DNA from: Marinobacterium profundum
GTDB taxonomy: Bacteria; Pseudomonadota; Gammaproteobacteria; Pseudomonadales; Balneatricaceae
Direction: 5' to 3'
Length of the DNA: 64,000 nucleotides
NCBI RefSeq assembly: GCF_001528745.1
Contig: NZ_BCNS01000091.1
Coordinates: 186,001 to 250,000 of the forward strand
The notes below the pieces were generated by a model. It saw only the letters and a list, made by a program, of their open reading frames with translations. It was not told where the DNA came from and did no database searches. The position numbers and the translations under genes were made by a program. Positions 19,331 through 38,889 of the stretch are shown here, piece by piece (within the stretch, counting starts at the first letter, position 1; every line of letters starts with the position of its first letter).

Positions 19331-20311
19331 ATGGCTACGGCGGCACAAATAAAAGCGTTAATGAAAAGTCACGTTGATAAAGATGATCAGCGTTTCTATT
19401 CTATTGCGCTGCAGATGGCTGCTAGGGAAGCTAGGCAAGGTCACACAAAATTGGCTTGCGAGATTAAAGAGATGATTGAAATATCTCAGAAATCTCATGT
19501 TTCAGCAGTTCCAGCGCGACCAACATCTATCGTTCAAAAGGTAAAGAGTGACCTTTCGGGCTTACTTGAACTTACGCACCCTCAGGTTCATCGTAATTTA
19601 CTCGTATTATCTGATGAAATTCAAGATCGATTGGATAAAGTAATTCTCGAGCAGAGGCAAAAAGATAAGTTAGCGAAATTTGGACTTCATCCGCGTCGAA
19701 AGTTGCTTTTTACCGGATCTCCTGGAACTGGAAAAACTATGTCAGCAGCGGTACTGGCTACTGAACTAAAACTTCCACTGTACACTATCGTTCTGGATAA
19801 TCTTATCACCCGGTTTATGGGAGAGACCGCTGCTAAGCTAAGGCTAATATTTGATCATATTAAGCAGACTAGGGCTGTTTACCTTTTTGACGAGTTCGAT
19901 TCAATTGGAACACAACGTGGATCGAATAATGATGTGGGTGAGATACGACGAGTTTTGAACTCTTTTTTGTTATTTGTAGAGCAAGATAGTTCTGAAAGTT
20001 TGATTATTGCGGCAACTAATCACCCCGAGCTTCTAGATAAAGCCTTGTATAGAAGATTTGACGATAATATCCGATTTGAAAAGCCTAAAAGTGGTCAGAT
20101 TAGAATTATTATCGAAAATCGCTTGTCAATGTTTGATCTCTCACATCTTGATTGGCGGTCAATTGAAAAAGAAGCTGAAGGCTTAAGCTCGGCAGAGGTT
20201 ACGCGTGCTTGTGAAGATGCGGCGAAGGAAGCTGTACTTCATCATGACACTTATATTAATACAGAATTGGCTCTCACTGCTGTAAAAAGACGACATCCAC
20301 AATATCAATAA
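19331..20311 (+). CDS. ietA: IetA-type AAA+ ATPase of the IetAS defence system
   Basis: A 326-residue AAA+ ATPase. The N-terminal helical region (1-100) precedes Walker A GSPGTGKT at 129-136, Walker B LFDEFD at 185-190, sensor-1 Asn230 (AATNH) and candidate arginine fingers Arg241/242. The core resembles proteasome- and FtsH-like AAA modules, but the protease is a separate chain. A subtilisin-like protease gene follows nine bases later. This ATPase plus S8 protease pair is the composition of the anti-phage system named IetAS by Gao et al. 2020. By analogy the ATPase would sense infection or remodel substrates for the protease; the mechanism is not visible here. The gene is AT-rich compared with its flanks. 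Ribosome site: aagaag. Confidence 0.82.
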   Translation: MATAAQIKALMKSHVDKDDQRFYSIALQMAAREARQGHTKLACEIKEMIEISQKSHVSAVPARPTSIVQKVKSDLSGLLELTHPQVHRNLLVLSDEIQDRLDKVILEQRQKDKLAKFGLHPRRKLLFTGSPGTGKTMSAAVLATELKLPLYTIVLDNLITRFMGETAAKLRLIFDHIKQTRAVYLFDEFDSIGTQRGSNNDVGEIRRVLNSFLLFVEQDSSESLIIAATNHPELLDKALYRRFDDNIRFEKPKSGQIRIIIENRLSMFDLSHLDWRSIEKEAEGLSSAEVTRACEDAAKEAVLHHDTYINTELALTAVKRRHPQYQ

Positions 20312-20319
20312 GGATTGAA

Positions 20320-22836
20320 ATGGCAACTAGGAAGCCCCATTTAAACGTTAATAACTATTTCACTCCGGAAGTTTTTCGCTCTCGTGGAAGTGCTAGAGGC
20401 AGTGAGGTTCCTCTACGAAATACAGCAGTTCACGGAAAGATGTTATCTGATCAATTTTTACAGATTCTTAATACATATGAGCAGCGTGCTCCTGATGAAG
20501 ACGCAATTACTGAAGAAAAAGGTATATATGTAGAAATAATATCATTTGAAGATTCTGAGCTTCCATTAGACAGCCTAGATACCTCGAGAGATTTTAAACT
20601 GAGAGCTGTTAAGAAAACCGATGATGGCAGACACATAGCGATCGTCTTCATCCCGGAGTTACGAAGAAAAACATTTCAGAATAAAGTTGAACAGTACATT
20701 AACTTCAAAAATAAAAAAGGGGATAAGCCGAAAAACCACAAGTTGATTGGTAGTATTTCGGAGGTTAGACTTGCAAATATACGATCTTTTTGGACTGATT
20801 CGGCTAGTGATTTTCCGCAAGATTCTAATCAAGCTGTTTGGTGGGAATTGTGGTTAAAAGGAAGGCTAGAGGAAAATACAAAGCAAGTAGCCAAATTGCT
20901 TTCTTTAAGAATTGATGCCGTCTTAGGTAATACTGCACAACATTTTTTTGATAGCTCCGTATTTTTAATCAAAGCATCGGTTAATCAACTCGAATCGGCC
21001 ACTTCTTTAATTGGCAACCTTGAGGAACTACGCAAAGCGAAGGAAACACCAAATGTTCTTCTCCACTCAGCCCCTAAAGAGCAGCAAGAATGGGTTGATA
21101 GTCTCGTTGAGAGACTGGAGATTCCCGAGGTGTATACGAGTTCAGTTTGTATTATGGATTCTGGGGTGAATTATCACCACCCCCTATTATGCTATGGAAT
21201 CCTCCCTGATATGGCTGAGTGCTGGAATCCTAATTGGCCTCATTTTGATACATACTCATTCCATGCACCCTACCATGATCATGGATCTTTGCAGGCTGGT
21301 TTGGCTCTTTTTGGAAATCTACAGGAAGCACTCGTAAGTACGGGGAGTATACGTTTATCTCACTGTATTGAATCGGCTAGGATTTTACCTCCTATTAGTT
21401 CAAACGACCCTGAGTTGTATGGCGCTATCACTGTTGGCACCGCAGCTAAAATTGAAGCATCTAATCCAAACTTACCTCGCGTTTACTCTCTGGCAGTAAC
21501 TGCCAGTCCAGAAGATTTAGGGGGCCAGCCAAGCTCATGGTCAGCTGAAATAGACCTTTATACCTCTGGAATGTTTGACGGATATCGTAGGCTATTCGTT
21601 ATCTCCACTGGAAATATTAGAAATCTTGGAGTATATCCGGATTTTTGGGATCAAATCCATTTATCAGAAATTGAAGATCCTGCTCAGTCTTGGAATGCTA
21701 TAACGGTGGGCGCCTATACTGAATTAACTACTAATGATGATCCTACGTTTTCTGGTTGGGCGCCTATAGCGCGAGCTGGTGATGCGTCGCCTGCTACACG
21801 TTCTGCAGTCAACTGGGGCTGGATAAAACAAGCACCTTATAAGCCTGATGTTGTTGCTGAAGGTGGAAATCGTTTAATTTCTCCTGACCAAACAGAGGTT
21901 AGTAATGCCGAATCAGTTTCGTTACTGACAACGTCGGGTAAAACTTCAGGCGATTTGTTTGAGGTTAATACTGATACAAGTGCAGCAACAGCTCTAGTTT
22001 CACGGCAAGCAGCAATTTTGATGTCAGAGTATCCTGCGTATTGGCCAGAAACTATTCGCGGGTTAATCGTACATGCTGCTGAGTGGACCCCTCGGATGTG
22101 GGAGCGCTATGGAAGCCTACAACGGCTCCATTCCCATAAAGTAGCGAAAGAAACTATGCTGCGGACCGTTGGGCATGGCGTTACAAGCTTAGATAGGGCG
22201 CGCTACAGTGCTGATCATGCCCTGACCTTGATAGCTGAAAATACAATCACGCCTTTCACTAAGGCGACTACCGCAAGTGCATCTACTGATCCGAATTTAA
22301 ATGAGATGCAGCTTTATCAACTTCCGTGGCCCATTGAGGCACTACAAAGCCTTCCTCCAGAACTGGAAGTTAAGCTAAAAATTACGCTGTCTTACTTCAT
22401 CGAACCAAGCCCTGGCCGTAGGGGTTACAAACAACGTTATAGCTATCAATCTCACGGCTTACGATTTGAAGTAATTAGGCCAGGGCAATCACTTCCAAAT
22501 TTTAGAGCCTTTGTGAATGGTCTTGCTAATATTGAGAACTATCATGGCCCAGAAGGTGATAGTGATGGGTGGCATCTTGGCCCTCATTTAAGAAAAAGAG
22601 GCTCTCTGCACACTGATACATGGACTGGTGATGCTCAGTCATTAGCAGATATGTATACAATTGCTGTGTACCCCGTAGGAGGTTGGTGGAAGTATCGAAC
22701 TGCAGAAGATAGATGGACTAATGACGTGCGTTATAGTTTGCTAGTCAGTGTCGAAGTTCCTAATCAAGATGTGGATATATATTCAATTATTGAAACGATG
22801 GTTGAGACCGAAATTCAAATACCGATTGAAGTATAA
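20320..22836 (+). CDS. ietS: IetS-type subtilisin-like (S8) serine protease of the IetAS defence system
   Basis: An 838-residue protein with a central S8 peptidase domain. The triad is Asp280 (CIMDSGVNY), His321 (YHDHGS) and Ser554 (DTSAAT, the equivalent of the GTS-A-AP motif). An N-terminal domain of about 250 residues with no clear family match and a C-terminal beta-rich domain (about 640-838) surround it. No signal peptide or propeptide cleavage pattern is evident, so it is cytoplasmic, as expected for a partner of the AAA+ ATPase. aaggattga before ATG 20320 supports the start. The 149 bases after the stop contain only a weak hairpin (22898-22915) before the host puuB gene. Confidence 0.82.
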   Translation: MATRKPHLNVNNYFTPEVFRSRGSARGSEVPLRNTAVHGKMLSDQFLQILNTYEQRAPDEDAITEEKGIYVEIISFEDSELPLDSLDTSRDFKLRAVKKTDDGRHIAIVFIPELRRKTFQNKVEQYINFKNKKGDKPKNHKLIGSISEVRLANIRSFWTDSASDFPQDSNQAVWWELWLKGRLEENTKQVAKLLSLRIDAVLGNTAQHFFDSSVFLIKASVNQLESATSLIGNLEELRKAKETPNVLLHSAPKEQQEWVDSLVERLEIPEVYTSSVCIMDSGVNYHHPLLCYGILPDMAECWNPNWPHFDTYSFHAPYHDHGSLQAGLALFGNLQEALVSTGSIRLSHCIESARILPPISSNDPELYGAITVGTAAKIEASNPNLPRVYSLAVTASPEDLGGQPSSWSAEIDLYTSGMFDGYRRLFVISTGNIRNLGVYPDFWDQIHLSEIEDPAQSWNAITVGAYTELTTNDDPTFSGWAPIARAGDASPATRSAVNWGWIKQAPYKPDVVAEGGNRLISPDQTEVSNAESVSLLTTSGKTSGDLFEVNTDTSAATALVSRQAAILMSEYPAYWPETIRGLIVHAAEWTPRMWERYGSLQRLHSHKVAKETMLRTVGHGVTSLDRARYSADHALTLIAENTITPFTKATTASASTDPNLNEMQLYQLPWPIEALQSLPPELEVKLKITLSYFIEPSPGRRGYKQRYSYQSHGLRFEVIRPGQSLPNFRAFVNGLANIENYHGPEGDSDGWHLGPHLRKRGSLHTDTWTGDAQSLADMYTIAVYPVGGWWKYRTAEDRWTNDVRYSLLVSVEVPNQDVDIYSIIETMVETEIQIPIEV

Positions 22837-25916: not shown

Positions 25917-26852
25917 ATGCGATTTGCAGTATTGGTGGCGCCGTTGCTGAGCCTAATGGTGCTCTGGAGCACGGTAGCACAGGCCATTACCGACGACCGG
26001 GGACAGGAGATCCAGCCTCAGAGCGAGGCCCGCAAAGTGGTCGCCATTTCGACCTTCGCCGCCGACACCCTGGTGGCCCTGGGGGTTGCGCCGGCGGGGG
26101 CATCCACCTTCGGCGATCGTCCGACACCGGACTTTCTCGGGCCGCTGATGGAGGGCGTGCCGAGCCTGGGGCAGCGCGCCAGCACCAATCTGGAGCTGCT
26201 GTCGGCGCTGCAGCCTGATCTGATTCTGGCGATCCGCCGCTATACCGAACCCAGTGCGCAAAAGCTCAGCGCCCTGGCACCTTTCTATGCCTTCGATGTG
26301 ATCAGTCATGACGACAGCCTGCGGGCGGTGACGGGCATTGCCACGGCGCTGGGCAAGGCGTCAGAAGGCCAGGCACTGAATGCGGATTTCGAGGCGCTGG
26401 TGGCGGATTTTGGCCGCCGGGCTCCCGGTGGAATTAGTGCCGTGCTGCTGGCGGGCAGCGGCGAAGCGCCCTTTGCCTATTACGACCACTTTCTGACTAC
26501 TGACCTGCTGCGCCGGCTGCAGGCGACCAACAGCATAGGCCCGTCGCCCACGCCAGAACAAGTGGTCCCCTTTGGCTACCAGCTCAGCCTGGAGCAACTG
26601 CTGGCGCTGAACCCTGATGTGATCTTCATATTTGCCTCCAGTACCCGCCATGCCTATGCCGCCAACCCGGTATGGCCTTATCTGAAGGCCGTGCAGCAGG
26701 GGCGCGTGTATGAGGTGGGCCTGCACTGGAAGGAAGGCGGCGGCCCCTTTGCCCGTGAGTACATTCTGCGGGAAATGGCCTGGCGCCTGTACCCGCAAAC
26801 CTTTCCTCAGCCGCAATTGCCTGCCTCTCTGGCCAGCCGGCTGTTTAACTAG
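25917..26852 (+). CDS. Periplasmic iron-chelate binding protein (FecB-like)
   Basis: A 311-residue class III (TroA/BtuF-type) binding protein. A signal peptide (VAPLLSLMVLWSTVAQA) is followed by DRGQEI, KVVAISTFAADTLVALG and ALQPDLILAIRRY. These are the standard opening strands of FecB/FhuD-type proteins. It collects a ferric chelate in the periplasm and delivers it to the two permeases encoded directly downstream (gap of three bases). A Fur box precedes it. The ligand is probably a citrate-type or other simple ferric siderophore, judging from the FecA-like receptor at 29931. Confidence 0.85.
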   Translation: MRFAVLVAPLLSLMVLWSTVAQAITDDRGQEIQPQSEARKVVAISTFAADTLVALGVAPAGASTFGDRPTPDFLGPLMEGVPSLGQRASTNLELLSALQPDLILAIRRYTEPSAQKLSALAPFYAFDVISHDDSLRAVTGIATALGKASEGQALNADFEALVADFGRRAPGGISAVLLAGSGEAPFAYYDHFLTTDLLRRLQATNSIGPSPTPEQVVPFGYQLSLEQLLALNPDVIFIFASSTRHAYAANPVWPYLKAVQQGRVYEVGLHWKEGGGPFAREYILREMAWRLYPQTFPQPQLPASLASRLFN

Positions 26853-26855
26853 GCC

Positions 26856-27893
26856 GTGTTCCCGATAATGGTGCGTGCAACCCTGTCGACGTTGAGATCC
26901 GCCCCGGCTCCAGACGCCGATTTCAAGGGTCTGGGCCTGCTCGCCGGGCTGGTCATAGCCTTGCTCGCCACCGCTGCCCTGGCCCTGGCCGCCGGTGCCG
27001 TACCTGTTTCAGTACAGGCACTCTGGCGTGTGTTGAATGGCACTGAAACCGGCATGCCCGCGATACTGGTGTGGGAGCTGCGGCTGCCGCGTTTTCTGGC
27101 CGGTCTGCTGGTGGGCGCGAGCCTTGGCGTTGCCGGCTGGGTGATGCAGACGGTGACCCGCAATCCGCTGGCATCCCCGGGCATTACCGGCGTGGTTGCC
27201 GGTGCGTCCATGCTGGTGGTGGTGGCCCAGGTCAGTTTCGTGGTGAGTGCCAGTTGGCTGCCCTGGATAGGCATGCTGGGAGGCACACTGGCGGCCACGC
27301 TGACCTTTGTGCTGGCGGCGCAGGGTGGCTTCACGCCCCTGCGCCTGGCCCTGGCCGGTATCGCCGTGACGGCCCTGGCCACCGCGCTGGCAACCGCTTT
27401 TCTGCTGTTTTCCGGCGCCCAGGCGCAGCAACTCTATTTCTGGCTGGCCGGTGGTCTGCAGGGGCGGGGCTGGGATCATGTGCAGCTGATGCTGCCCTGG
27501 GCCTGTGGCGGCCTCTTGCTGGTGATGTGTTTTTCCCGCTACCTGAACCTGCTGCGGCTGGATGATGCCGTCGCCCGGGCCCTGGGTGCCCGGGTGCTGC
27601 TGTGGCGTCTGGGCTTTGTCGGTATCGCAGTGGCGCTGACGGCGGCGACTGTGGCGGTGGCAGGTCCGGTGGGCTTTGTCGGGCTGGTGGCGCCCCATCT
27701 GGTACGTCTGCTGCTGGGCCCCGATCAGCGCTTTGCGCTGCCGGCGGTCATGTTGCTGGGCGCACTGCTGGTAACTCTGAGCGATCTGCTAGCGCGTATG
27801 CTGGCTGCTCCGGCCGAACTGCCATTGGGCATGTTTACGGCGCTTCTTGGCGGGCCGCTGTTTATCTGGCTGATTCGCACGAGGGTTCTGTGA
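26856..27893 (+). CDS. FecCD-family iron-chelate permease (FecC-like)
   Basis: A 345-residue inner-membrane permease with about nine to ten helices. Family segments include VWELRLPRFLAGLLVGASLGVAG, MQTVTRNPLASPGI and AGPVGFVGLVAPHLVR, the last being the ATPase-contact region. The start could be the GTG at 26856. It overlaps the next gene at TGATG, a sign of coupled translation. With its partner it forms the channel of the ferric-chelate ABC importer. Confidence 0.86.
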   Translation: MFPIMVRATLSTLRSAPAPDADFKGLGLLAGLVIALLATAALALAAGAVPVSVQALWRVLNGTETGMPAILVWELRLPRFLAGLLVGASLGVAGWVMQTVTRNPLASPGITGVVAGASMLVVVAQVSFVVSASWLPWIGMLGGTLAATLTFVLAAQGGFTPLRLALAGIAVTALATALATAFLLFSGAQAQQLYFWLAGGLQGRGWDHVQLMLPWACGGLLLVMCFSRYLNLLRLDDAVARALGARVLLWRLGFVGIAVALTAATVAVAGPVGFVGLVAPHLVRLLLGPDQRFALPAVMLLGALLVTLSDLLARMLAAPAELPLGMFTALLGGPLFIWLIRTRVL

Positions 27894-28960
27894 TGACGAC
27901 ACAGGCGCAAGACAGGCTGGCCATCCGACTGTGGCGCCTTGAATGCCCGCGCCTGCTATGGCTTGCGCTGCTGTTACTGGCGCTGATTGCTGTGGCCCTG
28001 GTGCTGAACCTGCTCTACGGTGCTGTGACGCTGACGCCACTGCAGGTCTGGCGGGCCCTCAACGGGGAGGGCGATGCAGTAGCCACCGATATTGTCTGGA
28101 ATCTGCGCCTGCCGCGGGTACTGCTGGGGCTGCTGGTGGGGGCGCATTTTGCCATCGCAGGTTCCGTGCTGCAGGCCGTGATGCGCAATCCCCTGGCGGA
28201 TGCCGGTGTGCTGGGCATCAATGCCGGCGCCAGTTTGGCTGCGGTGCTGGCTTTTGTTATGGCCGAACGGCTTTGGGGAGATAACGGCAGCTATTCGGCC
28301 CTGACGCTAAGTCTTAACTGGTTGCCGCTGATCAGTAGCGGCGGTGGCATTCTGGCCGCGGCGGCGGTTTACCGGCTGGGCTGGAGCCGCGGTGTCACGC
28401 CGTTGCGTCTGATACTCAGTGGCATTGCCGTGGCCAGTGTGCTGAATGCACTGGCCACCGGAGTACTCGCCGGCTGGGGGTCCATGAATACCGAAACGGT
28501 GCTGGTCTGGCTGGCGGGCAGTCTGTTTGGTCGTGGCTGGGAGCACCTCTGGGCTTTGCTGCCCTGGACGCTGCTGGCACTGAGTCTGCTGCCGCTGCTG
28601 CTGGCCGGAGCCAACCTGCTGCAGTTGGGGGATGATATCGCCAGCAGTCTCGGGCTGCCGGTCGAGCTGTGGCGTTTTGCCCTGCTGCTGGTGGCGGTGC
28701 TCTTTGCCGCCAGCGCCGTGGGGGTGGTGGGGCCTATTGGTTTTATCGGCCTGATAGTGGCGCAGATCGCGCGTCTTAGTTGTGGCCCGGACCTGCGCCG
28801 CCAGCTGATGCTGGGTCCGCTCTACGGGGCGCTGCTGGTGATGTTGTCAGATCTGCTGGGGCGGCTGCTGATGGTGCCGGCCGAGATCCCCATCGGGGTG
28901 ATTACGTCCCTGCTCGGGGTGCCATTTTTTATCTATCTGCTGGCGCGCAAGCAGGCGTAG
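27893..28960 (+). CDS. FecCD-family iron-chelate permease (FecD-like)
   Basis: A 355-residue permease homologous to the preceding gene. It has RLPRVLLGLLVGAHFAIAGS, MRNPLADAGVLGINAGAS and GVVGPIGFIGLIVAQIAR. The ATG at 27893 overlaps the upstream stop by one base. An open frame reaching back to 27602 is not part of the gene because it lies inside the upstream permease. The two permeases form a heterodimer in FecBCDE-type importers. Confidence 0.86.
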   Translation: MTTQAQDRLAIRLWRLECPRLLWLALLLLALIAVALVLNLLYGAVTLTPLQVWRALNGEGDAVATDIVWNLRLPRVLLGLLVGAHFAIAGSVLQAVMRNPLADAGVLGINAGASLAAVLAFVMAERLWGDNGSYSALTLSLNWLPLISSGGGILAAAAVYRLGWSRGVTPLRLILSGIAVASVLNALATGVLAGWGSMNTETVLVWLAGSLFGRGWEHLWALLPWTLLALSLLPLLLAGANLLQLGDDIASSLGLPVELWRFALLLVAVLFAASAVGVVGPIGFIGLIVAQIARLSCGPDLRRQLMLGPLYGALLVMLSDLLGRLLMVPAEIPIGVITSLLGVPFFIYLLARKQA

Positions 28961-28972
28961 GAGGGAGTTCAC

Positions 28973-29764
28973 ATGTTATCGGCGCAGCAACTGCAGCTGG
29001 GTTACGACGACAAGATCATAGTGCCGCAGCTGAGTCTGGCAGTGGATACTGGCCGGATTCATTGTCTGATTGGTCCCAATGGTTGCGGCAAGAGTACGTT
29101 GCTGCGGGCACTGGCCGGTTTGCTGCAGCCACAGCAGGGCCAGGTCCTGCTGGACGGACGCTCGCTCAGGCGCTGGAAGCGGCGTGAACTGGCGCAGCGC
29201 CTGGCCATGCTGCCGCAGCATCCGGTGGCGCCGGATGGCCTGACCGTGGAGCAGCTGGTGCGCTACGGTCGCTTTCCCTATCAGCGTTTGCTGGGTCAGC
29301 CGAGCGAGCAGGATTTTAAAATGGTGCGCTGGGCGATCCGGGTCACGGGCCTGGGTGGCTTCGAGGCGCGGCCCTTGTCGGCGCTGTCCGGCGGTGAGCG
29401 TCAGCGCGCCTGGATTGCGCTGTCGCTGGCACAGCAGGCCGATATTCTGATTCTGGATGAGCCAACCACCTACCTCGATCTGGGCCACCAGCTCGAGGTG
29501 CTGGAGCTGCTTAGCGAGCTGAACCGCCAGCAGGGCCTGACCGTGATCATGTCACTGCACGACCTGAATCAGGCGGCGCAGTTTGGTCATCGCCTGGTGG
29601 CCATGCGGGCAGGGCGGCTGGAACAGGAGGGCGCACCGGCCGAAGTATTGACGCAGGCGTTATTGGCCGATGTCTTTCGAGTGCACGCCCGGGTGACCCC
29701 CGAAGAGCTGACCGGCAAGCCGCAGTTTGTACCTGTGTCGTCCCTGGCGCGACCGCTGCTGTAG
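28973..29764 (+). CDS. Iron-chelate ABC transporter ATPase (FecE-like)
   Basis: A 263-residue ATP-binding subunit with Walker A GPNGCGKS, signature LSGGERQR, Walker B ILILDEPT and the H-loop SLHDLNQA. The C-terminal HARV-type tail is typical of FepC/FecE proteins. A gggag ribosome site precedes ATG 28973, 12 bases after the second permease. It powers import through the FecC/D-like pair and ends the ABC part of the operon. Confidence 0.88.
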   Translation: MLSAQQLQLGYDDKIIVPQLSLAVDTGRIHCLIGPNGCGKSTLLRALAGLLQPQQGQVLLDGRSLRRWKRRELAQRLAMLPQHPVAPDGLTVEQLVRYGRFPYQRLLGQPSEQDFKMVRWAIRVTGLGGFEARPLSALSGGERQRAWIALSLAQQADILILDEPTTYLDLGHQLEVLELLSELNRQQGLTVIMSLHDLNQAAQFGHRLVAMRAGRLEQEGAPAEVLTQALLADVFRVHARVTPEELTGKPQFVPVSSLARPLL

Positions 29765-29930
29765 GCCGGATGAGAGCAGCTGCAGTGTTGGCCGCTGCCG
29801 GTCCCTGAAAGTCGTGTGATTCGCAAGGCTTGGTTCAGCGGCGATCAATAGTTGTATGCGAAATATAATCTAGATACAATTGCGAACACTTATCATTTAG
29901 ATTTAAATAATTACGCAATTGGAGAACCTT

Positions 29931-32030
29931 ATGCCCCGGTCGATTTGCGGACAGCAGCCTGTACGCCCAAGGCTTTTCAGGAAGCCTCTGGTAGTGGCGG
30001 TCAGTCTGGTGACTATTGCTGTCAGTCAGGTTGGCCAGGCCGGGGACGCGGTGGAGCTGGATGCATTGACGGTGCAGGGCGACTGGATTGGCACTGCCAG
30101 CGAAGAGGAAATCAAGGTCTATCCCGGTTCCCGTACCCTGCTTGACCGTGAAGCCTTGCAGCAGAACGGCGCCCTGAATTTGGAAGATGCGCTGCGTAAT
30201 GCGCCCGGCATCCAGATACTGGATGAGACCGGTACCGGCATTCTGCCGAATATAGGTCTGCGGGGCCTGAATCCGTTGCGCAGCGAACGTCTGCAAATGC
30301 TGGTGGACGGTTATCCCATCGCCATAGGCCCCTACAGCAACGTCGGTGTCTCGCTGTTTCCGGTTACCCTGCCCAGCGTCGATGCGATTGACGTGGTACG
30401 GGGCGGTGCCGCCGTGCACTATGGCCCCAATAACGTTGGCGGTGTAATGAATTTCCGCACCCGGCCGATTCCGGTCGAAACCGAACAGACACTGCAGCAG
30501 CGGCTGGTGATTGCCGAAGAGACCGGCAATGTCTTCAGCGATACCTACTACCGTATTGGCGGCTTTGCGACCGAGGACCTGGCGTTGCAGTTCCAGGCCA
30601 ATGTGCAAAGTGGTGACGGTTTCCGTGATCATTCCGATACCGAGGTGCGTAATTTCGTCCTCGACGCCGAATATTTCGTGAATGATTACAACGAGCTGGC
30701 CGCGCAGCTGCAGTACTACGATGTCGATGCGCAGCTGCCAGGCGCCTTGAGCCCTGCGGCCTACGCGCAGGACCCCACCCAGTCCCAGCGCCCGCACGAT
30801 GCCTATGCCGCCGACATGCTGCGCGGCACCCTGACCTGGACCGCGCACCCGAGTGATGCGGTTGAATTTCAGTGGCGCAATTTCGCCCACCGCGCCGATC
30901 GTACCTTCTTTTTCGGCCAGGACCTGACCAGTGGTGGCAGCTGGGCGGACCCGGAAGCCGATGCCAGCCATGTAGCCGACTCGCCGCGCATCTTTAATGT
31001 CTGGGGTACCGAGCCGCGCCTGACGGTACAGCAGGGGAATCATACCCTGACCCTGGGCGCGCGTTATGTTTCCGAAACGGTGGACTTTGATGTCAACCGC
31101 GAGGAACTGTCCAGCGGCACCTATGCCTCGGTGCGCCAGTGGGATTTGGAAACCAATGCCGTGGCGCTCTATGTCAGCGACACTCTGAGCCTGCTGGATG
31201 GCCGGCTGGAAGTGACGCCGGGGCTGCGCTACGAAAACGTGCGCATGGATTTTGTCGATCAGCTAAGCGGCGCTGAGTCGGCCAATAACGCCGACGAGCT
31301 ACTGCCGGGCCTGACCCTGGGTCTGCAGGCGACCGACAGGGTCTTCCTGTTTGCCAACACACAGCGTTCCCTGGTGCCGGTACAGATCGCCCAGGCCACC
31401 AAGGCCGAGGACGTCGCCAACGAAACCGCCTGGAACTACGAGCTGGGTGCCCGCTGGCAGGCGATGCCTGAGCTTGCAACCTCAGCCACGCTGTTCCGCA
31501 TCGATTACGATGATCAGATTCAGTACAACAAGGCGCTGGACCGCTACGAGAACCTGGGCGAGACACGCCATCAGGGCGTTGAACTGGAAGCCGACTGGCA
31601 GGCTACTCAGCGCTTGAGTCTGGGATTGGGGTATACCTATCTGGATACCGAACAGCTTAACGGTGCCAATGCCGGCAACGAGTTGCCGAACGCATCGCAG
31701 CACCATCTGAGCCTGCGGGCCGGCTATCAGTACCAGCAGTGGCAGGCCAGCCTCAGCGCCCAGTATGCCAGCGACAGCTTCAGTGATGCGGCCAATACCG
31801 AACAGGAAACGGCCAACGGTGATGCCGGCAAGCTGCCGTCCTATACCCTGGTGAATGCACGTCTGGGACGGGATATCGTCCTCGCCGGTGGGCGGAATCT
31901 TAACCTGGGCCTGGCGGCCACCAACCTGCTGGATGAGGACTATTACTTCCGCGGTGCCGATGTCAGCCCGGTCGGGCGTGTGTCAGGCCCGGGTCGCGCC
32001 TTTATCCTGGAGGGGCGGCTGGATTTCTGA
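29931..32030 (+). CDS. TonB-dependent outer-membrane receptor, FecA-like without signalling domain
   Basis: A 699-residue receptor. A signal peptide is followed at once by a TonB box-like DALTV and the plug domain. The plug segments NIGLRGLNPLRSERLQML and AIDVVRGGAAVHYGPNNVGG match FecA. The 22-strand barrel ends in a terminal Phe. The N-terminal signalling domain of E. coli FecA is absent and no fecIR pair is nearby, so surface signalling to a sigma factor is unlikely. The ggaga site supports ATG 29931. A weak Fur-like sequence near 29883-29901 lies in the upstream gap. It takes up the same ferric chelate as the ABC genes before it. Confidence 0.87.
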   Translation: MPRSICGQQPVRPRLFRKPLVVAVSLVTIAVSQVGQAGDAVELDALTVQGDWIGTASEEEIKVYPGSRTLLDREALQQNGALNLEDALRNAPGIQILDETGTGILPNIGLRGLNPLRSERLQMLVDGYPIAIGPYSNVGVSLFPVTLPSVDAIDVVRGGAAVHYGPNNVGGVMNFRTRPIPVETEQTLQQRLVIAEETGNVFSDTYYRIGGFATEDLALQFQANVQSGDGFRDHSDTEVRNFVLDAEYFVNDYNELAAQLQYYDVDAQLPGALSPAAYAQDPTQSQRPHDAYAADMLRGTLTWTAHPSDAVEFQWRNFAHRADRTFFFGQDLTSGGSWADPEADASHVADSPRIFNVWGTEPRLTVQQGNHTLTLGARYVSETVDFDVNREELSSGTYASVRQWDLETNAVALYVSDTLSLLDGRLEVTPGLRYENVRMDFVDQLSGAESANNADELLPGLTLGLQATDRVFLFANTQRSLVPVQIAQATKAEDVANETAWNYELGARWQAMPELATSATLFRIDYDDQIQYNKALDRYENLGETRHQGVELEADWQATQRLSLGLGYTYLDTEQLNGANAGNELPNASQHHLSLRAGYQYQQWQASLSAQYASDSFSDAANTEQETANGDAGKLPSYTLVNARLGRDIVLAGGRNLNLGLAATNLLDEDYYFRGADVSPVGRVSGPGRAFILEGRLDF

Positions 32031-32074: not shown

Positions 32075-32101
32075 AGGCCGGCATTGATTGCCGGCCTTTT
32101 T
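32075..32101 (+). terminator. Rho-independent terminator after the receptor gene
   Basis: A nine-base stem AGGCCGGCA / TGCCGGCCT with a five-base loop and a T tail, 45 bases after the receptor stop. Confidence 0.85.
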
Positions 32102-32128: not shown

Positions 32129-32283
32129 TTAAAGCGACCAGCGTACGGGTAATTCGGTGGTCGATTTCAGCGTCTGCAGCAGCAGGTTGGATTTGACGTT
32201 GGACACCATGGGCAGATTCAGCAGCCGGTGCAGGGTGACATCGGCGAAAGCCTTCAGATCTGGCGCCACTATTTTTAGCGCAC
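32129..32283 (-). pseudogene. Second 3' tail of the adjacent lrp gene
   Basis: On the minus strand this encodes the last 51 or so residues of the Lrp protein at 32308, starting LKIVAPDLKAFADV and ending at its own TAA. Bases 32130-32245 are identical to 32309-32424 of the intact gene. The next 36 bases differ at about ten sites, yet the encoded residues are the same from LKIVAPD onward. The homology then stops abruptly in unrelated sequence. It is a gene fragment with no start, left just downstream of the intact copy. Confidence 0.88.
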
Positions 32284-32307
32284 TGGGTGCCTGCAGCGCA
32301 GGCTATG

Positions 32308-32796
32308 CTAAAGCGACCAGCGTACGGGTAATTCGGTGGTCGATTTCAGCGTCTGCAGCAGCAGGTTGGATTTGACGTTGGACACCATGGGCAGATTCAG
32401 CAGCCGGTGCAGGGTGACATCGGCAAAGGCTTTCAAATCCGGTGCCACGATTTTCAGCATATAGTCTGCATCCCCCGCCACCCCCCAGCATTCGAGTACC
32501 TCGGGGTACTCTATAATGGCAGTACGGAATGCGTCGGCGATCTTCTCGCTGTGTTTGTCCAGCGATACGCTGACCAGTGCCATGACGCCAAGCCCGATCT
32601 TTTCCGGGTCCAGCTGTGCGATGTATTTGCACACCACCCCGGTTTCTTCCAGCTTCTGACGCCGCCGCTGACACTGGGACGCGGACAGGTGTACCAGCTC
32701 CGATAATTCCACATTACTGAGCCGGCCGTTTTGCTGTAGCGCCTCGAGAATTTTGATGTCCTGACGGTCGAGCGCAACGGAATGCGTGTTTCTCAC
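32308..32796 (-). CDS. Lrp/AsnC-family regulator divergent from hpd
   Basis: A 162-residue Lrp-type protein of normal length. HTH: LDRQDIKILEALQQNGR, then SASQCQRRRQKLE. The ligand-binding RAM domain ends LKSTTELPVRWSL. It faces away from the 4-hydroxyphenylpyruvate dioxygenase gene across a 168-base gap. This placement suggests that it controls aromatic amino acid catabolism in response to tyrosine or phenylalanine. A diverged second copy of its 3' end lies immediately downstream (32129-32283), and the stop codons differ (TAG here, TAA there). Confidence 0.9.
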   Translation of the reverse strand: MRNTHSVALDRQDIKILEALQQNGRLSNVELSELVHLSASQCQRRRQKLEETGVVCKYIAQLDPEKIGLGVMALVSVSLDKHSEKIADAFRTAIIEYPEVLECWGVAGDADYMLKIVAPDLKAFADVTLHRLLNLPMVSNVKSNLLLQTLKSTTELPVRWSL

Positions 32797-37182: not shown

Positions 37183-38700
37183 ATGAACGATGCGGTGACG
37201 AGTTTTGCGATCAATTTCATCGCAGTGATCGGTGTGCTGGTGCTGATTGTGCTGGTGGGCGCCGCAGTGGCGGCGTTGGCCTACTACCAGATCGACAAGC
37301 ATCAGACCAAACACAGCCTGAGGCGCAACTATCCGCTGGTGGGGCGCTTTCGCTACCTGTTTGAGCATCTGGGTGAGTTCTTTCGCCAGTACTTCTTTGC
37401 CATGGACCGGGAAGAAATGCCCTTTAACCGCGCCCAGCGCTCCTGGGTGTATCGGGCGGCCAAGAACATCGACAATACTGTCGCCTTCGGTTCGACCCGC
37501 GATCTGCGCACCCCGGGTACTTATTACTTCCTGAATTGCCCCTTTCCCAAGCTGTCCGAGGAGAGCACCCGTTCGGTGTCGATGCGCATAGGTCCTTATT
37601 GCACCGAGCCCTACGATGCGCCCTCCTGGTTCAACGTATCGGGCATGAGCTACGGCGCTCTGTCCAAACCCGCCGTACAGGCGCTGTCCCGTGGAGCCAA
37701 GCTGGCGGGCTGCTGGATGAACACCGGTGAAGGCGGTATTGCTCCCTACCACCTGGAAGGCGGCTGCGACCTGGTGTGTCAGATAGGAACGGCCAAATAT
37801 GGCGTGCGCGATGAGCATGGTCTGTTGTCCGACGACAAGCTGCGGGAGAAGGCCGCCATTGGCCAGGTGCGGATGTTCGAGATCAAGCTGTCCCAGGGCG
37901 CCAAGCCCGGCAAGGGTGGCATGCTGCCGGCGGAGAAAGTCAGTGAGGAAGTGGCCAGTATTCGCGGTATCCCTGCAGGCCATGCCTCCATCAGCCCCAA
38001 CCGCCATCCGGAAATCGACTCCATCGATGATCTGCTGGACATGATCGGGCATGTGCGCAGCGTGACTGGCAAACCCTGCGGCATCAAGCTGGTATTGGGG
38101 TCGGCGCACTGGCTGGACGATTTCTGTCAGTCGATTCATGACCGGGGCATAGAGTCGGCACCCGACTTTATCACTCTGGATAGCTCTGATGGCGGTACCG
38201 GTGCGGCGCCCATGCCGCTGATGGACAGCGTCGGCTTGCCGCTGCGCGAAAGCCTGCCGGTGCTGGTCAACAAGTTGCTGGAACATGGCCTGCGCGAACG
38301 TATAAGGCTGGTCGTGTCCGGCAAGCTGATCAATCCGACCGATGTGGCGGCGGCACTGTGCATGGGGGCGGACTTTATTGTCAGTGCCCGCGGTTTCATG
38401 TTCTCGCTGGGCTGCATCCAGGCCATGCAGTGCAATCGCAACACTTGCCCCACAGGGGTGACGACCCATGACCCGGACCTGCAACGCGGCCTGGTGCCCG
38501 CCGACAAGGCCGAGCGGGTGCGTCATTACCACGATAACCTGGTGCACGAGGTCGAGCTGATCGCCCACAGCTGCGGTGTTTCAGAGCCCAGACTGCTGAG
38601 GCGCGAGCACGCGGCCATGGTGGTGGAAGGTGGCCGTTCTGTGCCGCTAAATATTATCTATCCAGAGCCCCGGACCGATACGGGTACAGGGGTTGCGTGA
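37183..38700 (+). CDS. Membrane-anchored FMN-binding glutamate synthase-like protein
   Basis: A 505-residue protein. One N-terminal membrane helix (about residues 8-35) is followed by the alpha/beta barrel of the central/FMN part of glutamate synthase. The markers are FNVSGMSYGALSKPA, NTGEGGIAPYHLEGG, the SIDDLLDMI and LVLGSAHW region, SSDGGTGAAPM, and an NRNTCPTGVTTH segment. It lacks the glutamine amidotransferase domain, the GltB C-terminal beta helix and any GltD partner. It is thus a stand-alone domain protein of uncertain reaction rather than a complete GOGAT. The helix would anchor the barrel in the cytoplasm. A diverged second copy of its last 40 codons follows the stop. Confidence 0.85.
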   Translation: MNDAVTSFAINFIAVIGVLVLIVLVGAAVAALAYYQIDKHQTKHSLRRNYPLVGRFRYLFEHLGEFFRQYFFAMDREEMPFNRAQRSWVYRAAKNIDNTVAFGSTRDLRTPGTYYFLNCPFPKLSEESTRSVSMRIGPYCTEPYDAPSWFNVSGMSYGALSKPAVQALSRGAKLAGCWMNTGEGGIAPYHLEGGCDLVCQIGTAKYGVRDEHGLLSDDKLREKAAIGQVRMFEIKLSQGAKPGKGGMLPAEKVSEEVASIRGIPAGHASISPNRHPEIDSIDDLLDMIGHVRSVTGKPCGIKLVLGSAHWLDDFCQSIHDRGIESAPDFITLDSSDGGTGAAPMPLMDSVGLPLRESLPVLVNKLLEHGLRERIRLVVSGKLINPTDVAAALCMGADFIVSARGFMFSLGCIQAMQCNRNTCPTGVTTHDPDLQRGLVPADKAERVRHYHDNLVHEVELIAHSCGVSEPRLLRREHAAMVVEGGRSVPLNIIYPEPRTDTGTGVA

Positions 38701-38736
38701 GGCCGTGCTTGGGTAAGGCGTGGTGCGGACGCCGCT

Positions 38737-38865
38737 TCAGAGCCAAGACTGCTGCGGCGCGAGCATGCACATACTGAAGAGCCGCTGGTGGAAGGTGGCC
38801 GTTCTGTGCCGCTAAATATTATCTATCCAGAGCCTCGCACCGATGGAGGGGCAGGAATTGTGTGA
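38737..38865 (+). pseudogene. Second 3' tail of the GltB-like gene
   Basis: This segment repeats the last 42 or so codons of the gene ending at 38700: EPRLLRREHA, then VEGGRSVPLNIIYPEPRTD, and a different C-terminus ending GIV before TGA 38863-38865. The central part (38786-38834) is identical to 38621-38669. The flanks differ by base substitutions and a five-codon insertion. There is no start codon context, so it is a fragment of a diverged allele. Confidence 0.85.
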
Positions 38866-38889
38866 CGGATAAGGTGAAGCGCTAAACGT

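Follow-up and report, generated by a model that had tools for sequence, protein, structure and literature searches.

How does a bacterial gene come to be followed by a second copy of its own end, identical over most of its length and silently different over the rest? The question is raised by a regulator gene of Marinobacterium profundum, studied here in a window of 64,000 nucleotides. The gene (32308-32796, minus strand) has a GTG start, a TAG stop and a whole reading frame of 162 aa, has hpd (4-hydroxyphenylpyruvate dioxygenase) as its divergently oriented neighbour, and was found in all seven Marinobacterium genomes compared: the window's genome (G000), M. aestuarii ST58-10 (G001), M. nitratireducens (G002), M. 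rhizophilum DSM 18822 (G003), G004, M. sedimentorum OS208 (G005) and the MAG G006. An earlier note on this DNA had named it lrp; reading of the ORF and the presence of both Lrp/AsnC Pfam domains uphold the family, but not Lrp proper, as the protein scores 117.2 bits against the Lrp-proper equivalog profile, below its curated cut-off of 233. No Rfam family attains its gathering score between 31900 and 33100. In M. nitratireducens a run of GTGGTAA repeats lies at the stop codon of the orthologous gene (L008, ~1970-2005). Elsewhere in the window (19331-22836), an AAA+ ATPase and a subtilisin-like protease, which match the PADLOC models of IetA (E 2.7e-75) and IetS (E 5.4e-31), form a candidate anti-phage defence pair.

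Downstream of the gene, in the same orientation and at an offset of 179 bp, lies a copy of gene nt 340-489 (49 codons plus TAA) without the gene body (32129-32278, minus strand); the copies are close together and one gene is kept intact. The repeat stands out when the window is compared with itself (E = 4.5e-62), and the second copy described earlier is thereby confirmed, with a length of 50 codons instead of the last 51; upstream of gene nt 340 they have just a few bases in common. Alignment of the two tails confirms the 116 identical bases that had been reported, at gene nt 373-488 (32309-32424, minus strand, matching 32130-32245). In the adjoining block, gene nt 340-372 (32425-32457, minus strand, against 32246-32278), 8 of 33 sites differ and all eight differences are synonymous, so that the silent character of the divergence stands and the earlier count of about ten in 36 bases does not. 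All eight are confined to 33 of the 149 columns (clustering p = 2.8e-6). The stop codons are unlike, TAG in the gene tail and TAA in the extra tail. The spacer that separates the extra tail from the gene stop (32279-32307, minus strand) holds a small hairpin (32289-32303), and a hairpin with a 9-bp stem in the interval between the gene and the convergent TonB receptor gene (32075-32097) is likely to be a shared terminator.

A divergent block that adjoins an identical one implies that recombination has acted, and a fresh simple duplication cannot yield such a pattern, as the earlier note rightly argued. Where the note invoked a diverged foreign allele, however, exchange between the two copies is more probable. 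The extra tail is probably what remains of an old tandem duplication in place, after which the copies decayed and underwent unequal exchange and gene conversion. The double tail is ordinary genome wear, which also affects other genes of these bacteria.

Comparison of each tail with the relatives does not bear out the idea of a tail supplied by the diverged allele of another lineage. Over gene nt 340-372, the gene tail shows three differences from M. aestuarii and four from M. sedimentorum, the extra tail five and four, respectively, and against M. rhizophilum, G004, M. nitratireducens and G006 the counts are 7-11 for the gene tail and 9-11 for the extra tail. Neither tail points to another lineage; both are about equally near to the closest alleles, and comparison with the six relatives did not place one of them clearly nearer to some other lineage. 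This comes close to the outcome that the earlier note had itself named as counting against its reading. Within gene nt 373-486, both window tails carry A468, C471 and T486, which are absent from the gene tails of the six relatives and from the full tails of M. sedimentorum, and T402, which otherwise occurs only in the last tail of M. sedimentorum; at the 114 sites compared, the identical block differs at 11 from M. aestuarii and at 7-8 from the M. sedimentorum tails. Because these variants of the identical block are unseen in the six relatives, the copies were homogenised inside the window's lineage, and the alignments point to gene and extra tail having been homogenised in place by mutual exchange. 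There is also a hint, from the sequence, that the extra tail formerly ended a working gene: all three changes that it alone carries within the 33-nt block are synonymous, with a chance of ~0.014-0.022 if neutral, which would fit a once functional end better than a tail that had always been idle.

A broader view is provided by the number of full tails at the regulator gene, of which there are three in M. sedimentorum, two in the window's genome and one in each of M. aestuarii, M. nitratireducens, M. rhizophilum, G004 and G006. In M. sedimentorum the gene is followed by two more full tails in a 260-bp unit, the two copies of which are identical, and each unit additionally contains a shorter, degraded tail. 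The offset from full to degraded tail is 81 bp, with another 179 bp from there to the full tail that follows; their sum is the 260 bp of the unit, and 179 bp is exactly the offset seen in the window. The 30-nt spacer of the window recurs twice in this array, with 3 of 30 nt changed, at the junction between the degraded and the next full tail (two of the three changes oppose each other in a 6-bp hairpin, a single pair that is too little for an argument). Allowing up to three mismatches, the spacer is present in 2 of 116 genomes of the family, those of the window's species and M. sedimentorum, always at the regulator locus and nowhere else, so that no donor with a single gene copy was found among them; viral contigs gave no exact match. 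A mobile spacer was considered and rejected on account of this confinement to the regulator locus. The tail that runs on into downstream DNA native to the relatives is the extra one and not that of the gene, a position to be expected of the final copy in a tandem duplication: the DNA after the extra tail (TAAGCCTGCC...) resembles that following the gene in M. aestuarii (TAAGCCTGAC...), hairpin included. The two species share one and the same tail array, and an array common to both is older than a single import into the window's strain.

Import nevertheless deserves to be weighed. A diverged allele could have arrived with its own tail and downstream DNA, either through homology at one junction and illegitimate joining at the second, or as a circle that integrated by a single crossover, with the native tail left in place. 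The silence of all eight tail differences would suit such an event, as would the spacer, whose resemblance to the native downstream DNA expected as its source is not significant (shuffle p 0.08-0.18); this dissimilarity and the silent private changes are also compatible with an imported diverged allele. The tail moreover diverges more than the body: between the window's genome and M. aestuarii, 14 of the last 156 nt differ against 5 of the first 330 (p = 0.00018), and the window's genome and M. aestuarii each differ from M. sedimentorum at 12 of 156 against 8 of 330 (p = 0.012), with no amino-acid change in body or tail among the three; none of the other pairs, out of 21, gave a tail-over-body excess with p < 0.06. 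A parallel may be seen in M. nitratireducens, where a methyladenine glycosylase gene has two allele-like tail ends around an array of three 96-bp units of strong, REP-like palindromes (L188, 738-1333). However, the pair M. aestuarii and M. sedimentorum has this tail excess too, and M. aestuarii displays it despite its single tail. Since hpd differs by 5-8% between the window's genome and these two species, near the divergence of the tail, it may be the body, with its low divergence, that is unusual, and we place no weight on the contrast. Neither tail resembles the distant lineages (7-11 of 33 nt differ from M. rhizophilum, G004, M. nitratireducens and G006), no source of the spacer was found in the 116 family genomes, nor in viral contigs when exact matches were sought, and the array is common to two species. 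We regard import as unlikely. A diversity-generating retroelement was also considered and set aside on inspection, the differences being all silent and not limited to the adenines of one copy.

Integrative elements that target the 3' end of a gene and bring a replacement tail bearing silent differences are known, e.g., e14 in icd, and the deletion of such an element down to its ends could leave two tails behind. The 3' side of the gene is indeed variable: an uptake operon of siderophore/citrate type, which includes the receptor (25917-32030 in the window), lies between a glutamine-synthetase-like gene and the regulator in the window's genome and M. rhizophilum and adjoins the regulator in M. 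aestuarii and G004, and it is missing in M. sedimentorum, M. nitratireducens and G006, where the glutamine-synthetase-like gene and the regulator are adjacent. However, the far side of the operon is without an lrp-like tail, and on that ground the operon was rejected as an island bounded by gene tails. Moreover, no integrase was seen at the locus when the ORFs between and around the tails were read, the tail is not on phage records nor on closely similar plasmid or viral records, and the same double-tail form occurs at many unrelated genes with different sequences; a scar of this kind is very improbable. Finally, the window's genome is a draft of 226 contigs, and a misassembly could in principle double a gene end. 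The tails differ at eight sites and in their flanks, which the collapse or mis-joining of one tail would not produce, and the independent assembly of M. sedimentorum has the matching spacer and the same 179-bp offset, making an artefact scarcely credible.

The regulator is not alone in having two tails, and a second such gene is present in the window itself. A gene for a glutamate synthase domain protein (37183-38700, plus strand), recognized by self-comparison and domain search, is followed by a decayed extra tail (38736-38868, plus strand) that aligns with a 9-nt insertion and changed codons. This tail continues into native DNA found downstream of the orthologues in M. aestuarii and M. sedimentorum, each of which has one tail; the stretch after the first stop again shows no significant match to its expected native source (shuffle p 0.12-0.13). 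Elsewhere in the genus, extra tails were seen at a CopB gene, the methyladenine glycosylase gene, an exonuclease-type gene and an RnfD-type gene, and an FtsX-type permease gene has an extra head. Plain young duplications of gene ends with like topology occur in G004 (L152 and L156, both among the genes just listed), in the window's genome (L126) and, within the family but outside the genus, at an enoyl-CoA hydratase gene that carries a plain tandem duplication (L242). In L152, L156 and L242 the stretch after the first stop matches, by eye, that after the last, and by analogy these would show the likely look of the lrp-type duplication when young.

A protein-level survey for double tails in 1,416 kb of the genus gave 43 matches, judged by eye, of which 33 were dropped as paralogues, wrong-frame readings or low-complexity matches and 10 were genuine (nine loci, lrp being counted in two species), seven of them outside the chosen loci. 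Controls gave none among four matches in 800 kb of the family plus 200 kb of E. coli, and two among five in a further 400 kb. With seven in the genus and two in the controls, each in 1,200 kb, the difference does not reach significance (p = 0.18), and among the seven, L140 and L144 are weak as well as short. Local non-tRNA arrays numbered 21 in 1,200 kb of the genus not chosen for locus, or 18 after leaving out three in M. aestuarii that are CRISPR-like by look (L180 and L181; 0.9-2 kb, period 68-71 bp), against seven in 1,200 kb of the family outside the genus (three in 800 kb, four in 400 kb); E. coli K-12 had two in 200 kb. A genus-specific excess of arrays (18 against 7, p = 0.043) is not claimed, as the G+C content of the genus is higher. 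Two species have head-to-tail arrays of four to five units of ~182 bp (L098, 10361-11256; L097, 10090-10795), which derive from the start of an iron-transport ATPase gene and lie just upstream of the intact gene; these were not found in the window's genome or M. aestuarii. In G004 about ten 106-bp units extend out of an 805-codon reading frame at its 3' end (L139, 10680-11810), and in the window's genome a 41-nt stretch that repeats the 5' portion of a tRNA gene (tRNA type by eye) lies 148 bp before the full-length match (L131, 8710-8750). A literature search covering titles and the openings of abstracts found no paper on double-tailed genes, which does not prove their absence.

The following course of events would account for these observations. 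The duplicated stretch may have begun near gene nt 338 and ended at the foot of the downstream hairpin that resembles a terminator, and its tandem duplication would have left an intact gene plus a spare tail, the first copy remaining whole. The duplication probably arose by slippage or switching of the template at the short shared sequence TAAAAA: the copied segment begins with it (CTAAAAAT in the extra tail and in M. sedimentorum), and it also occurs in the A-tract beside hairpin 32075-32097, at its foot, a match that sits inside an A-rich terminator and was noted by eye. At the second gene its counterpart would be GAGCCC (M. aestuarii, M. sedimentorum), likewise seen by eye, and it is from these two loci, with shared sequences spotted by eye, that we infer slippage or template switching at the hairpin foot. 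A small array would then have passed to the window's strain and to M. sedimentorum, where an 81-bp internal duplication was presumably followed by the recent duplication of the 260-bp unit. Copies of 150 bp that lie 30 bp apart could recombine, leading to collapse, to expansion as in M. sedimentorum or to mutual conversion as in the window's genome. The 116-nt identity would represent a recent tract of conversion or unequal exchange, which the 33-nt synonymous block escaped; the direction of this exchange is a matter of inference. Copies would since have decayed, overwritten each other and been lost through exchange, and such loss may explain the congeners with a single tail.

A more far-reaching idea is that gene ends in this lineage tend to form small arrays of tails that serve as a reservoir, where swapping with the working gene would keep the unused ones readable, so that the last third would gain silent change faster than the body with the protein fixed; we consider this rather improbable. 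If the local duplication that we favour is correct, the end of a working gene can go on exchanging sequence with a headless copy of itself across a species split, and imported alleles are not required for synonymous mosaics at gene ends, which calls for caution in their interpretation. Double-tailed genes are easily overlooked in annotation, and may be frequent enough in some lineages to serve as records of conversion-tract length.

Several known systems offer points of comparison. Homology-facilitated illegitimate recombination occurs in natural transformation and could produce a second tail with a foreign spacer, but here no donor was found and the tails are about equally near to the closest relatives. 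Elements that integrate at 3' ends, such as e14 in icd, likewise give two tails with silent differences, whereas the present locus has no element, integrase or far-side tail and its copies are only 179 bp apart. Short local tandem duplications arise by replication slippage or by microhomology-mediated template switching, and the regulator locus resembles them in its direct copies tens to hundreds of bp apart, the intact gene retained, the short shared sequence at the proposed junction and a copy number that varies among relatives; it differs in the age of its copies, which have diverged in part and been homogenised in part, and in a spacer whose match to its expected source is no longer clear. 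In concerted evolution, tandem copies are homogenised by gene conversion or unequal crossing-over, and the identical block, whose lineage-specific variants occur in either copy, is with the diverged block alongside it of the same kind, except that here the exchange would take place between the end of a working gene and its own headless fragment.
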